This document shows, in pieces, positions 3,610 to 7,461 of a stretch of 64,000 bases of DNA. Source of the DNA: Byssovorax sp. Lineage in GTDB: Bacteria > Myxococcota_A > Polyangia > Polyangiales > Polyangiaceae. The stretch lies in the NCBI GenBank assembly GCA_025362495.1, contig JANYGI010000114.1, positions 62,001 through 126,000 on the forward strand, read 5' to 3'. Both the position numbers and the translations under genes were made by a program. Position 1 is the stretch's first letter. The number at the start of each line of letters is the position of its first letter. The notes below the pieces were generated by a model, which ran no database searches, was not told the origin of the DNA, and saw only the letters and a list, made by a program, of their open reading frames with translations.

Positions 3610-4632
3610 TCAAAGCGGTTGGCTGGCGAAGAAGCCGCCGCCCCGCGGCTCCGCGCAGAAGTACCGCCGCACGATCAGGTAGTGGTGCAGCGGCAGGACC
3701 CGGGTGGCCTCGCGCATCGAGAGGCCCATGCAGCTCACCTCGGCGCCGGGGAACGGCGTCTTCGGGTAGAGCGACGACAGGCCCGAGAACGCCTCGTACT
3801 CGTCGAGCAGGCCGAGCATGTGGCCGACCTCGTGCGCCACGATCGGGAGCGACCAACCGCTTCGAAACGCTGAAAAATACGGCGTGCGCCCGCACGTCGG
3901 CGAGAGCGGCACCAGCAGGTCGGCGCCGGAGGGGGCCCCGCCCTCCGCGAGCACGAACTCGAAATCGTAGTCGATGGGCAGGCCGAAGGCGCGGGCGTCG
4001 CGCGTGTAGTAGCGCTCGGCCTCGCGCGACCAGCGGCCGAGGAGCGCGCGCACGTGGGCCGGCGTCGCGCTGATCGAGAACGATCCCGATCCGGGGCAGG
4101 CCTCGGTCTTCGGCGACGCCGAGTACGGGGTGCCCGAGCAGCGGCTCTCGTCCGCGCCCACCTCGTGCACGAGGCCGCAGTCGGGGAGCTCGAGCGAGGC
4201 CACGCCCAGCGGAGGCGCGATGGCGATCGTCACCGTCACGCGGAAGCGCCCGGCGCCGTCGACGGTGCGATGCGCGACGCGGTAGTGCATCGGCCCGAAG
4301 AAGAAGCCGTAGTGCGGCATCTCGCCGGCGATCGTCCGCTCCCCGTCGGGCGCGGGTCCGAAGAACACCGCCCGCGGCGACGGCTCGCACGCGTAGGGAT
4401 CGCTGGCGATCGTGTCCTCGAGGATCCCCCGGAACGTCGCGCGATGGGCCGACGTCAGGCCGTCGCTGAGCGCCGTCAGCTCGGCGTCGACGATCGCGAG
4501 GGTGCTCGCATCGCCCGTCGCCGCTGCGCTCCCGGGCGCCGCGACGGGCCCGCATCCGGCGCAGCTCAGCGCGAAAAAAATCGCGGTAGGGGCGCTGAAT
4601 CGACGAGATTTCTGCGCTGCGTCGCGGTCCAT
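3610..4632 (-). CDS. Secreted zinc metalloprotease-like lipoprotein
   Basis: A 340-residue protein starting at ATG 4632, where a short basic start and a hydrophobic stretch ending in a Cys-rich segment (SCAGCG) look like an export signal, probably a lipoprotein one though the lipobox is imperfect. The key motif is HEVGHMLGLLD at residues 267-277. This is the HExxHxxGxxD pattern with Asp as probable third zinc ligand, as in snapalysin-type zincins. Several Cys pairs suggest disulfides and an extracytoplasmic site. The substrate is unknown. The same frame is open further upstream (to 4887), but that extension is arginine-rich and lacks signal character, so I rejected it. The gene is divergent from the bufferin-like operon. 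Confidence 0.75.
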   Translation of the reverse strand: MDRDAAQKSRRFSAPTAIFFALSCAGCGPVAAPGSAAATGDASTLAIVDAELTALSDGLTSAHRATFRGILEDTIASDPYACEPSPRAVFFGPAPDGERTIAGEMPHYGFFFGPMHYRVAHRTVDGAGRFRVTVTIAIAPPLGVASLELPDCGLVHEVGADESRCSGTPYSASPKTEACPGSGSFSISATPAHVRALLGRWSREAERYYTRDARAFGLPIDYDFEFVLAEGGAPSGADLLVPLSPTCGRTPYFSAFRSGWSLPIVAHEVGHMLGLLDEYEAFSGLSSLYPKTPFPGAEVSCMGLSMREATRVLPLHHYLIVRRYFCAEPRGGGFFASQPL

Positions 4633-4931
4633 CGGCCCCGCGAGCTTACGCTTTCGCTTGCCCCGGAGCGAAGAGCCGCGGTACCTACGTGAGCCAGTTC
4701 GGCCGGGTGGTGCGTCGAAGGATCTGCACGCTCGAACGAAACGTTTGCAGCGGAGCCGCGTAGGTTCCGCCGAAGGTCGCTTGGCCCTCCATCCCGGTTC
4801 GGGAGAGGATTCAGCGTCCTCGGTTTCGAGAAAGTTCTGGCGATCCCTGGCCTCTGGCCTGCGGGTCGCCTTCGTCGCGACGACCATTCTGTCTGCGCGG
4901 CGTCCAATCGGTAACGTTGGTGGAGGTTGAG
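4633..4931. other. Divergent intergenic region upstream of bufferin-like operon
   Basis: This stretch of 299 bases separates the zincin gene from the precursor gene and must hold both promoters. I see a good Shine-Dalgarno at its right end but no convincing sigma-70 -35/-10 pair. Related copper-responsive operons often use ECF sigma factors, whose sites I cannot identify here by eye. Confidence 0.4.
4922..4926 (+). promoter_or_regulatory. Strong ribosome binding site deciding the precursor start
   Basis: GGAGG stands five bases before ATG 4932. This makes 4932 the start rather than the in-frame TTG at 4917, which has no site before it and would overlap the Shine-Dalgarno itself. Confidence 0.75.
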
Positions 4932-5210
4932 ATGGCGATTCAGATCGGCAAGGCGTTGGCGTTTACGGCGGTGGGCGGCATGGTTGCGGGCCTCGCGGCT
5001 TGCGGCGGCACGGCAGCGGCCGACGCCGGTGCGGCTGCCAAGAGCCCCGAGGCGGCCGGCGTTGCCGGCGCTGCCGTCGGTGCCAAGGACTGCTGCAAGG
5101 GCAAGAACGAGTGCAAGGGCAAGGGCAATTGCAAGAACGACAAGAACGACTGCAAGGGCAAGAACGAGTGCAAGGGCACCGGCGGCTGCAAGGCTGCTGA
5201 CTGCAAGTGA
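4932..5210 (+). CDS. Bufferin-like RiPP precursor, Cys/Lys-rich, lipobox-bearing
   Basis: A 92-residue peptide. Residues 1-24 form an export signal with a lipobox (LAAC, Cys24). An Ala/Gly-rich linker runs to about residue 52. The core (53-92) holds eight cysteines at 54, 55, 61, 67, 74, 80, 86 and 91. It contains two near-identical units: CKGKNECKGKGNCK (55-68) and CKGKNECKGTGGCK (74-87). This low-complexity CxGKNxCKGxGxC style matches BufA2-type precursors, whose cysteines are oxidised by DUF692 enzymes to copper-chelating heterocycles. The enzyme pair follows directly, supporting that reading. It differs from the EGKCG-motif precursors of Haemophilus-type systems. Protein modification and metal are inferred, not visible. 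Alternatively it could be an unmodified metallothionein-like lipoprotein. Confidence 0.75.
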   Translation: MAIQIGKALAFTAVGGMVAGLAACGGTAAADAGAAAKSPEAAGVAGAAVGAKDCCKGKNECKGKGNCKNDKNDCKGKNECKGTGGCKAADCK

Positions 5211-5270
5211 CTCGTCCTCGAGCCGCTGAGCCCGCCGCGAGGTAGGTTCACGCAGCTCGAGAGTCGGCTG

Positions 5271-5308
5271 GCCCGGGCCGCCGCTCCACGAGGAGCGGTA
5301 ACCCGGGC
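5271..5308 (+). terminator. Two-tier hairpin between precursor and enzyme genes
   Basis: An outer stem GCCCGGG (5271-5277) pairs with CCCGGGC (5302-5308). Inside it, CCGCTCC (5281-5287) pairs with GGAGCGG (5292-5298) around the loop ACGA. No T-run follows. It may act as a partial terminator or as an RNA-stabilising end of the precursor transcript, giving much more precursor than enzyme. Confidence 0.6.
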
Positions 5309-5343
5309 TCAGCATTTTCTAGCGCCGGAGATCTGCACGGAAG

Positions 5344-6207
5344 ATGTCGACGAAGCCCCCTGCCCGCCTCGGCCTCCCCGACCTCGGCGTCGGCGTCGGA
5401 ATGCGCATACCGCACTACGCCGATCTGCTCGACGGCCCCGAGCCCGCGCGGATGGACTGGCTCGAGATCATCAGCGAAAACTTCATGCTCCCCGGCGGCC
5501 TGCCTCGCTACAACCTCGGCCGCGCGCTCTCGCGGTATCAGCTCGTGCAGCACGGCGTGTCGCTCTCGATCGGCGCGACCGAGGCCCTCGACCTCGAGTA
5601 CCTGCGCAAGCTGAAGGCGCTGATCGGCGAGACGAAGACGCCCTGGGTCAGCGATCACCTGTGCTGGACGGGCGCGCACGGCGTCAACCTCCACGACCTG
5701 CTCCCGCTCCCGTACACGGAAGAGGCGGTGAAGCACGTCGCCGCGCGAGCTCGCCAGGTCCAAGACATCCTCGGCGTGCGGCTCTTGCTCGAGAACGTGT
5801 CGAGCTACCTCACGTACACCTCGAGCACGATGACCGAGTGGGAGTTCCTCACGGCGATCGCCGACGAGGCCGACGTCGGGCTCCTGCTCGACTGCAACAA
5901 CATCTACGTCTCGTCGTTCAACCACGGCTTCGATCCGCGCGATTTCGTCGACGGGGTGCCCCACGCGCGCGTCGCCCAGATCCATCTCGCGGGCCACACC
6001 AACTACGGGAAGTACATCATCGATACGCACAGCGCCCCGGTGATCGATCCGGTGTGGCAGCTCTACCGTCAGGCCATCGAGCGCTGCGGCCCCGTGTCGA
6101 CGCTGATCGAGTGGGACGACGACATCCCGCCCTTCGCCGAGCTCTGCGCCGAGGCCGAGAAGGCCCGTGTCATTCGCGACGAGGTGGCCCGTGACCGCGC
6201 CGCGTGA
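5344..6207 (+). CDS. bufB: DUF692 multinuclear non-heme iron oxidase (MNIO, BufB/MbnB type)
   Basis: A 287-residue cytoplasmic enzyme of the DUF692 family. Family members use a two- or three-iron centre and O2 to rewrite cysteines in RiPP precursors (oxazolone/thioamide in methanobactin, thiooxazole in bufferins). The TIM-barrel metal-ligand motifs are all here: IPHY (His24), SENF (Glu45), QHGVSLS (His70), SDHLCW (Asp104, His105), LLENVSSY (Glu150), LLLDCNNIYVSSFNHG (Asp183, His194), QIHLAGH (His214, His218), IDTHS (Asp228, His229) and IEWDDD (Glu256). Length and motifs are full, so it should be active. It follows the precursor by 133 bases and overlaps the partner gene. ATG 5344 is the only sensible start. 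Confidence 0.92.
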   Translation: MSTKPPARLGLPDLGVGVGMRIPHYADLLDGPEPARMDWLEIISENFMLPGGLPRYNLGRALSRYQLVQHGVSLSIGATEALDLEYLRKLKALIGETKTPWVSDHLCWTGAHGVNLHDLLPLPYTEEAVKHVAARARQVQDILGVRLLLENVSSYLTYTSSTMTEWEFLTAIADEADVGLLLDCNNIYVSSFNHGFDPRDFVDGVPHARVAQIHLAGHTNYGKYIIDTHSAPVIDPVWQLYRQAIERCGPVSTLIEWDDDIPPFAELCAEAEKARVIRDEVARDRAA

Positions 6208-7024
6208 GCCGATGGACGCCGTGATGGCCTTCCTCGAGCCCGCGTTTCGCCGCGTGGATCCGCTCGCCGGCGACGCCGCCATCGCGGGCGAGGTCGCCGC
6301 GCACGTGACGGGCAACAGCCGCCTCACGCCCGCCGAGCAGGTCGACATCTACCGTCGGCAGTACTGGCTGCGGCACCTCGACGCGCTCGCCGACGACTAC
6401 CCCGGCGTGGCGCACCTCGTCGGCGAAGAGGCCTTCGACGTCTTCCTCCGCGCGTACCTCGTCGCGTACCCGCCGCGCCACAAGTCGCTCCGCGATCTCG
6501 GCTGCGACATCGTCACGTTCGGCGACGGCTACGCGTTCGCCGACGACGTGCAGGCTGCGGCGCGCGAGATGCTCGCCTACGAGCACGCCTTCATCGATCT
6601 GTTCGACGGGGCCGAGCCGCCGCCGCTCGATCCGCAGAAGCTCACCTCGATCCCGGAAGACGCGTGGGAGCGCGCGCGCGTCGTGATCCACCCGCTTCTG
6701 GTGCACCGGCGCGTGCGCTTCCCCGTGCACCGGCTCCGGCTCGCGGCGAAGGACAGCGACGCCGCGCCGCGCACCGAGCCCCCTGCCCTCGCCCCGGCGA
6801 ACCTCGTGCTCTACCGCGACGACAACCTGATCCGCTTCGAAGAGCTCGACGGGACGGCGTTCGCGCTGCTCGACGCGCTCGCGCGGGGCGAGGCGCTCGG
6901 GCCCGCCTGCGAGCAGGTCGCCGCCACGCTCGACGCCGCAGCGGCCGAGCAGCTCGGCGCCCAGGTCGGACCGTGGTTCCAGCAATGGACCGCGCGCCGA
7001 TGGATCGTCGACGTCGTCGTTTGA
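6191..7024 (+). CDS. bufC: DUF2063 partner protein of the MNIO enzyme (BufC type)
   Basis: A 277-residue protein whose N-terminal half is the DUF2063 domain. Typical stretches are the early RxxYWLRHLDALADDYPGV-like segment and the LRAYLVAYPPRHKSLRDLG segment. DUF2063 proteins sit beside DUF692 enzymes and, as in MbnC/BufC, bind the precursor and assist the oxidation. The C-terminal part (about 185-277) is a separate domain ending in a Trp-rich strand. I prefer GTG 6191, which has GAGG at 6181-6184 and overlaps the enzyme gene by 17 bases, showing translational coupling. ATG 6212 and GTG 6167 are alternatives. No DoxX-like or export gene follows, so the operon appears to be only three genes. 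Confidence 0.85.
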   Translation: MTAPREPMDAVMAFLEPAFRRVDPLAGDAAIAGEVAAHVTGNSRLTPAEQVDIYRRQYWLRHLDALADDYPGVAHLVGEEAFDVFLRAYLVAYPPRHKSLRDLGCDIVTFGDGYAFADDVQAAAREMLAYEHAFIDLFDGAEPPPLDPQKLTSIPEDAWERARVVIHPLLVHRRVRFPVHRLRLAAKDSDAAPRTEPPALAPANLVLYRDDNLIRFEELDGTAFALLDALARGEALGPACEQVAATLDAAAAEQLGAQVGPWFQQWTARRWIVDVVV

Positions 7025-7044: not shown

Positions 7045-7461
7045 ATGGCCTCCGTTCACCAGCGCAGCCTCGAGATCCCCACCCGCGGACGCGGCCTCAT
7101 CGACGTCACCCGCGCCGTCGCCGAGGTCGTCGCGAGCTCCGGCGTCACGGTCGGGCTCTGCTCGATCTTCGTCCAGCACACCTCGGCGAGCCTGGTGATC
7201 CAGGAGAACGCCGATCCCTCGGTGCTCCGCGATCTCGAGCGCTGGCTGGCGAAGCTCGCCCCCGAGTCCGACGTCTACGAGCACGACGACGAGGGCCCCG
7301 ACGACATGCCCGGCCACCTCCGCAGCGCGGTGACCCGCACCAGCGAGACGATCCCCATCGCCGGCGGCCGCCTCGCCCTCGGCACGTGGCAGGCCGTGTA
7401 CCTGTGGGAGCACCGCGCCGCCCCGCACGCGCGGCGCCTGATCGTCACCGTTCTCGGCTGA
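7045..7461 (+). CDS. yjbQ: YjbQ family (UPF0047) protein
   Basis: A 138-residue protein matching the full length of the UPF0047/YjbQ family. Recognisable features are the QHTSASLVIQENADPSV segment, the DDEGPDDMPGHLRS segment and the GTWQAVYLWEHR segment with its conserved histidines. The family forms trimers with a metal site at the interface; some members show weak thiamine-phosphate synthase activity in vivo, and the true role is unclear. It begins 20 bases after the bufC stop on the same strand and may be co-transcribed, but the family is widespread and probably unrelated to bufferin function. Confidence 0.9.
   Translation: MASVHQRSLEIPTRGRGLIDVTRAVAEVVASSGVTVGLCSIFVQHTSASLVIQENADPSVLRDLERWLAKLAPESDVYEHDDEGPDDMPGHLRSAVTRTSETIPIAGGRLALGTWQAVYLWEHRAAPHARRLIVTVLG

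Follow-up and report, generated by a model that had tools for sequence, protein, structure and literature searches.

The bufA-bufB-bufC operon at positions 4932 to 7024 (plus strand) of the window, by which we mean the whole 64-kb stretch of DNA analyzed here, is an eight-cysteine variant of the bufferins, a recently described kind of RiPP. Its three genes code for a precursor, a maturase of the MNIO (DUF692) type, and a partner with DUF2063 and RRE-like domains, and it probably makes a lipid-anchored Buf2-type bufferin (a Cys-Lys captophorin) with 5-thiooxazoles, under ECF-controlled envelope metal/oxidant stress. The host is a soil myxobacterium, in which the peptide is probably membrane anchored, as judged from its sequence, and the product of the maturase, an iron enzyme, is predicted by analogy to bind copper. 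The bufferin kind itself is known; the 8-Cys lipobox form, the intercistronic hairpins, and the ECF-type promoter are new.

The bufABC operon and its eight-cysteine precursor

The genes, their order and homology, the lipobox, the hairpins, and the conservation of the promoter are read directly from the DNA, and the features are as follows.

4738..4762, plus strand: predicted ECF-sigma promoter (GAAAC-N16-CGTA), with the ATG of bufA 194 nt downstream
4932..5210, plus strand: bufA, 92-aa Cys/Lys-rich RiPP precursor, BufA2-like, with an 8-Cys core; C terminus ...KDCCKGKNECKGKGNCKNDKNDCKGKNECKGTGGCKAADCK
4932..5003, plus strand: putative signal peptide with lipobox LAA-C24, found by sequence inspection; predicted lipoprotein
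5091..5204, plus strand: core from C54 to C91, made up of an extra Cys, two 3-Cys units (5094-5135 and 5151-5192), and an extra Cys
5211..5343, plus strand: bufA-bufB gap; strong hairpins at about 5213-5266 and at about 5267-5313, with TTTT at 5315 after the second
5344..6207, plus strand: bufB, MNIO maturase; Pfam PF05114 (DUF692), 357 bits, above the Pfam cut-off
6191..7024, plus strand: bufC, PME-type 1 partner with DUF2063 and an RRE-like C-terminal domain
7045..7461, plus strand: yjbQ (UPF0047), 20 nt downstream of bufC, syntenic in the nearest relatives

The initial annotation described a 92-residue Cys/Lys-rich peptide followed by DUF692 and DUF2063 genes, and all three are present, the products of the DUF692 and DUF2063 genes with Pfam domains above their cut-offs. 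BufC matches PF09836 (DUF2063) with 58 bits (cut-off, 27.2) and, in its RRE-like domain, NGO1945_C (PF22106) with 33.5 bits (cut-off, 27); its start is either the GTG at 6191, overlapping bufB, or the ATG at 6212. The bufA-bufB-bufC order is tight and is kept in relatives, and yjbQ is outside the core system. The divergent gene at 3610-4632 (minus strand), which keeps its place beside bufABC in the nearest relatives, encodes a lipoprotein-like protein with an HExxH metallopeptidase-type motif (HEVGH) and matches no family above cut-off.

BufB scores 348 bits against the NCBI BufB equivalog model NF050167, above its cut-off of 310, and 272.8 bits against the HvfB model, under the cut-off of 360. 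In the alignment, the residues conserved with 3BWW, TglH, and MbnB are all intact in BufB (conserved residues H70, H105, E150, D183, H214, D227, H229, and E256). D258 aligns with the presumed catalytic base, and D259 follows it within IEWDDDIPP. Cys-Lys MNIOs carry Asp at the site of FonB Phe250 (Gadgil et al., PMC13097082), and D259 is the predicted equivalent of that residue, which would set Cys-Lys specificity in BufB. The Asp rule for Cys-Lys MNIOs is not absolute, because a group of loci with Cys-Lys-rich, six-Cys, mostly lipobox-bearing precursors ending in GGCK has Ala at this site.

BufA contains nine Cys residues: one, C24, belongs to the lipobox, and the others (C54, -55, -61, -67, -74, -80, -86, and -91) make up the eight of the core, with Lys following seven of these eight. 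The calculated monoisotopic mass of the mature peptide starting at C24, before lipidation, is 6533.96 Da. The two near-identical 14-residue units reported in the initial annotation are real, matching at 12 of 14 positions, a value equaled in 0 of 20,000 core shuffles; the same annotation read them as modification sites, and the idea of a new modification unit does not stand, since the pattern is that of ordinary Buf2. The six-Cys core has the 5-5-6-5 spacing canonical for 6-Cys myxobacterial BufA2, and the two repeats are the ordinary Buf2 layout of 2 × 3 Cys, to which the 8-Cys form adds one Cys on either side. That annotation overlooked four features: the lipobox, the added Cys on each side of the core, the hairpins between bufA and bufB, and the promoter.

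The only family match of the precursor is to the BufA2 model (NF050166), with 28.2 bits, under the cut-off of 60. This model matches 14 of 14 aligned precursors, giving 83 to 84 bits for the canonical 6-Cys myxobacterial sequences and 17 to 41 bits for the 8-Cys group (five sequences scored, including that of the window). The profile search suggested earlier against BufA1 and BufA2 thus yielded homology to BufA2 below the curated score, while the precursor had no Pfam match of any kind, and DUF2282 (PF10048) had none in the host genome; membership in Bufferin 1 is rejected on the lack of a PF10048 match. With a score below the curated cut-off and eight core Cys, where BufA2 in the strict sense has "6 or 12 conserved core Cys," the peptide lies outside strict BufA2, and its sequence supports its placement in the broad Cys-Lys captophorin/bufferin class.

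Distribution of the eight-cysteine form

The comparison set comprised 93 distinct maturase loci from the host's class and family, with precursors sorted by Cys spacing. Thirty-three loci, including that of the window, have 8-Cys precursors, nearly all with the pattern CC-x5-C-x5-C-x(6-7)-C-x5-C-x5-C-x(3-4)-C, and in most of them, once the additional first Cys is set aside, the next six start out with the canonical 5-5-6-5 spacing. The DUF692 genes of relatives are therefore not always paired with another precursor type, the outcome that the initial annotation had named as evidence against its proposal. The other loci comprise 8 with seven-Cys precursors, 8 with canonical six-Cys precursors, 9 with the six-Cys form ending in GGCK (7 of them with a lipobox), and 35 with other, reduced, or unrecognized precursors. 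In the maturase tree, the 8-Cys loci group with the 7-Cys loci and with loci carrying reduced precursors, all from the host's family. A precursor pattern scan of named genomes gave matches in MAGs of Polyangiaceae, Labilithrix, and Sorangium, and among the compared loci the 8-Cys form (33 of 93) was found in the host's family only, which is Polyangiaceae by the named contigs.

All 33 of the 8-Cys precursors have a lipobox-like site with Cys and have the seventh Cys in a GGC context. In the 7-Cys group, the last Cys mostly stands in an SCP context, resembling the last Cys (HCP) of many 8-Cys precursors and unlike the GGC site, and one hypothesis is that this group lost its inner seventh Cys but kept both outer ones. 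Taken together with the disulfide of Buf1, which joins its first Cys to its last (PMC12452194), this context suggests an outer disulfide, so C54 and C91 may be paired by analogy, a reading based on few independent events.

The core is reduced, mostly to three Cys, in some relatives whose maturases are about 70% identical to that of the window. A 3-Cys core (CSGAK...CSG) was seen at the orthologous locus in six of them (L005, L012, L040, L042, L043, and L046), orthology being judged from the common yjbQ and divergent peptidase genes at the loci covered by longer stretches. The system can therefore do without the full 8-Cys core, because in these close relatives the maturase persists beside a precursor of three Cys, and the shrinkage from eight to three Cys at orthologous loci opens the substrate rules of BufB to direct testing.

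CC-type bufferin precursors were also observed without bufB in the up to 8 kb of sequence analyzed per locus (L120, L121, L123, L129, L133, L148, L149, and L151), with apparently several tandem cores in L151; no common function was found among the genes neighboring these orphan precursors. In Legionella species (L117, L124, L130, L134, L136, and L154), long CKGKNGCKGKN tandem-repeat precursors adjoin bufB genes whose products are about 44 to 54% identical to that of the window.

Intercistronic hairpins, a predicted ECF-type promoter, and a second MNIO operon

The 133-nt bufA-bufB gap folds with a z score of -5.4. Among 32 eight- and seven-Cys loci, z was below -2 in the gap at 26, whereas segments of equal length reached this value at 7 loci when taken upstream of bufA and at 5 when taken within bufB. 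The gap hairpins fit a control of stoichiometry that keeps precursor above enzyme, presumably through partial termination or mRNA stability.

The promoter motif GAAAC-N16/17-CGTA was derived from an enriched-word search of the regions upstream of bufA, in which 8-mers were weak alone and nothing stood out except the pair of boxes at a fixed distance. It has a single match in the 64-kb window, at 4738-4762, against an expectation of 0.14. Upstream of bufA it occurs in the forward direction at 23 of 78 loci, compared with 1 on the reverse strand, 0 in bufB, and a shuffle mean of 0.125, counts that are descriptive given that the motif was discovered on the same loci. Only spacers of 16 and 17 are favored, those of 10 to 15 plus 18 to 23 together giving one match. 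The motif precedes bufA at 18 of the 33 8-Cys loci, with none in controls; the exact form is absent from the other 15 and from all eight 7-Cys loci. The window has the hexamer GAAACG versus the commoner GAAACC, the sharper pattern TGAAACCG has no match in the host genome, and a scan for sigma-70 promoters and simple terminators gave no result.

Over the whole genome, the motif occurs 12 times with N16 (control, 9) and 2 times with N17 (control, 7), so near to control that a regulon cannot be read from counts alone. Two further sets test the motif. In the first, one of the other exact copies in the host genome is located 37 nt upstream of the precursor gene in a second MNIO operon, and the motif lies upstream of the corresponding operon in six relatives. 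In the second, the motif is found 36 to 78 nt upstream of a lipoprotein msrA gene in 13 of the 14 best orthologs (L175-L188, including that of the host; ≥55% identity, genomes of the host's family). This conservation is not mere recent shared ancestry, because the spacer sequences differ between genomes. Exact copies also stand 8 to 29 nt before genes for exported YtkA-like, thioredoxin/NHL, and DUF1223 proteins in the host genome (L160, L170, and L172), which are possible further members of the regulon at motif counts of chance level. The motif provides a handle for finding further MNIO operons and their regulon.

The second MNIO operon (contig 52 of G000, L205:1246-4849, minus strand) has the order precursor, MNIO, DUF2063, ECF sigma (Sigma70_r2 plus r4_2), and NrsF. 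Its precursor is lipoprotein-like with the C terminus SCGEGTCG, those of the relatives end in GCGAGTCG, and its MNIO falls between models (HvfB, 277 bits, below 360; BufB, 262 bits, below 310). In relatives, no sigma/NrsF pair was seen next to the corresponding MNIO locus. The Buf2-type bufABC appears to answer to an ECF sigma encoded elsewhere in the genome, probably that of the second operon. The second operon has a parallel in Caulobacter, where sigmaF (GTAACC-N16-CGAA, with NrsF) drives two Buf1 operons and YedY and responds to chromate and cadmium (PMC3511200), and in ECF systems that put msrAB and related operons under sigmaE in Neisseria and under RpoE2 in Haemophilus, the Haemophilus regulon responding to HOCl (PMC2893595, PMC7907618). 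The link between an ECF sigma, methionine-sulfoxide repair, and MNIO RiPPs known in these three genera is here carried into myxobacteria and extended to a Buf2-type operon. Sigma and NrsF genes have been found in Buf1 clusters, not Buf2 clusters (Antoine et al.), and linked sigma genes were previously unreported for Buf2.

Proposed function and comparison with known systems

A course of events can be proposed, drawing on relatives for 5-thiooxazole formation, Cu(I) binding, Sec export and lipidation, the identity of the sigma, and the disulfide. Envelope metal/oxidant stress would activate an ECF sigma, probably the NrsF-controlled one of the second MNIO operon, to start transcription at 4738-4762, and the hairpins after bufA would keep precursor mRNA above enzyme mRNA. 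In the cytoplasm, the RRE domain of BufC would present pre-BufA to BufB, which would oxidize the Cys of Cys-Lys sites to 5-thiooxazoles. The Sec/Lgt/Lsp pathway would then export the peptide and lipidate C24, and a flexible Ala-rich linker would hold the core at the membrane, facing the periplasm, where it would bind Cu(I) or another soft metal. C54 and C91 may pair as a disulfide, like the first and last Cys of Buf1. Copper is the likeliest but not the sole metal candidate, because no metal gene was recognized adjoining the operon among the neighbors scanned. Several observations speak against the proposal as a whole: the BufA2 score below cut-off, the lack of metal and DoxX genes among the scanned neighbors, the near-control motif count of the genome, the 8- and 7-Cys loci that have no exact motif, the GAAACG hexamer and the distance of 194 nt from bufA in the window, the missing sigma/NrsF pair in relatives, and the close relatives with 3-Cys precursors.

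The link to msrA allows an oxidant role for the bufferin, and the same RiPP might have as its main task the defense against envelope oxidants (hypochlorite, thiol oxidation) or noncopper metals, with copper incidental. The motif common to msrA and present before the DUF1223 and thioredoxin-like exported genes of the host favors this possibility, as do the pairing of MsrAB with related operons in the Neisseria and Haemophilus ECF regulons, the HOCl response of the latter, and the chromate and cadmium response of Caulobacter sigmaF (PMC3511200). However, the bufferins characterized so far are copper binders, as are related captophorins (PMC12452194, PMC13097082), and copper itself provokes oxidative stress, so that both roles are compatible; we regard such a main task as possible but rather unlikely. 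A further reading, which is improbable, would leave the precursor unmodified, as a Cys/Lys lipoprotein resembling metallothionein, with BufBC acting elsewhere or being relictual. Some genomes do have CC-type precursors without bufB within up to 8 kb, and bufB is retained beside reduced precursors in relatives, but the tight, conserved gene order, the conserved active-site residues, and an MNIO specificity residue that fits Cys-Lys substrates argue for modification of this peptide. Least credible is an oxazolin/HvfA-type (EGKCG) product, for which the best NCBIfam match of the partner, HvfC, speaks with 45 bits, far under its cut-off of 142. The precursor has no EGKCG repeat, in agreement with the initial annotation; the HvfB model stays at 273 bits, below 360, and the BufB model passes; and the specificity site has Asp, not Phe. 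HvfA membership is rejected on the absence of EGKCG and the sub-cut-off HvfB score.

Beyond the lipid-anchored Buf2-type bufferin preferred here, we tentatively raise a more specific idea, which may well not hold: a Polyangiaceae bufferin subclass with a lipid-anchored core and an outer C1-C8 disulfide around six thiooxazole Cys, sharing one ECF/NrsF switch with lipo-MsrA and the second, differently encoded MNIO RiPP (core GCGAGTCG). Such a peptide would act as an oxidant/metal shield at the membrane surface rather than as a plain copper buffer.

The assignment to a bufferin-type RiPP made in the initial annotation is well supported by the BufB cut-off, the PME-type 1 partner, the gene order, and the Cys spacing. 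Bufferin 2 (BufA2; Buf_6/12Cys, NF050166) shares with the operon the bufABC order, a BufB equivalog, the PME-type 1 partner, CxGxNxCKG units, the 5-5-6-5 Cys spacing, and a precursor that is here predicted to be exported; lipoprotein status is predicted for about 16% of Buf2 (PMC12452194). The operon differs from Bufferin 2 in its eight core Cys with an outer CC...C pair, its sub-cut-off BufA2 score, the lack of DoxX among the scanned neighbors, and the ECF-type promoter. Bufferin 1 (DUF2282) with the Caulobacter sigmaF-NrsF system resembles it in having MNIO and DUF2063 genes and in the ECF/NrsF control, proposed for the host, of two MNIO operons together with a periplasmic reductase of the methionine-sulfoxide type, which is YedY in Caulobacter and MsrA in the host, but DUF2282 is absent from the host genome, and the promoter is GAAAC-N16-CGTA here and GTAACC-N16-CGAA there. 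Lipidated MNIO RiPPs (RiPP-lipoprotein hybrids) have been isolated (PMC12636315). The lipidated oxazolin NedA and the chryseobasin-like DybA likewise have an MNIO RiPP core behind a lipobox, but their cores are EGKCG or CPACGMG, and their lipidation is experimental, whereas that of BufA is predicted.
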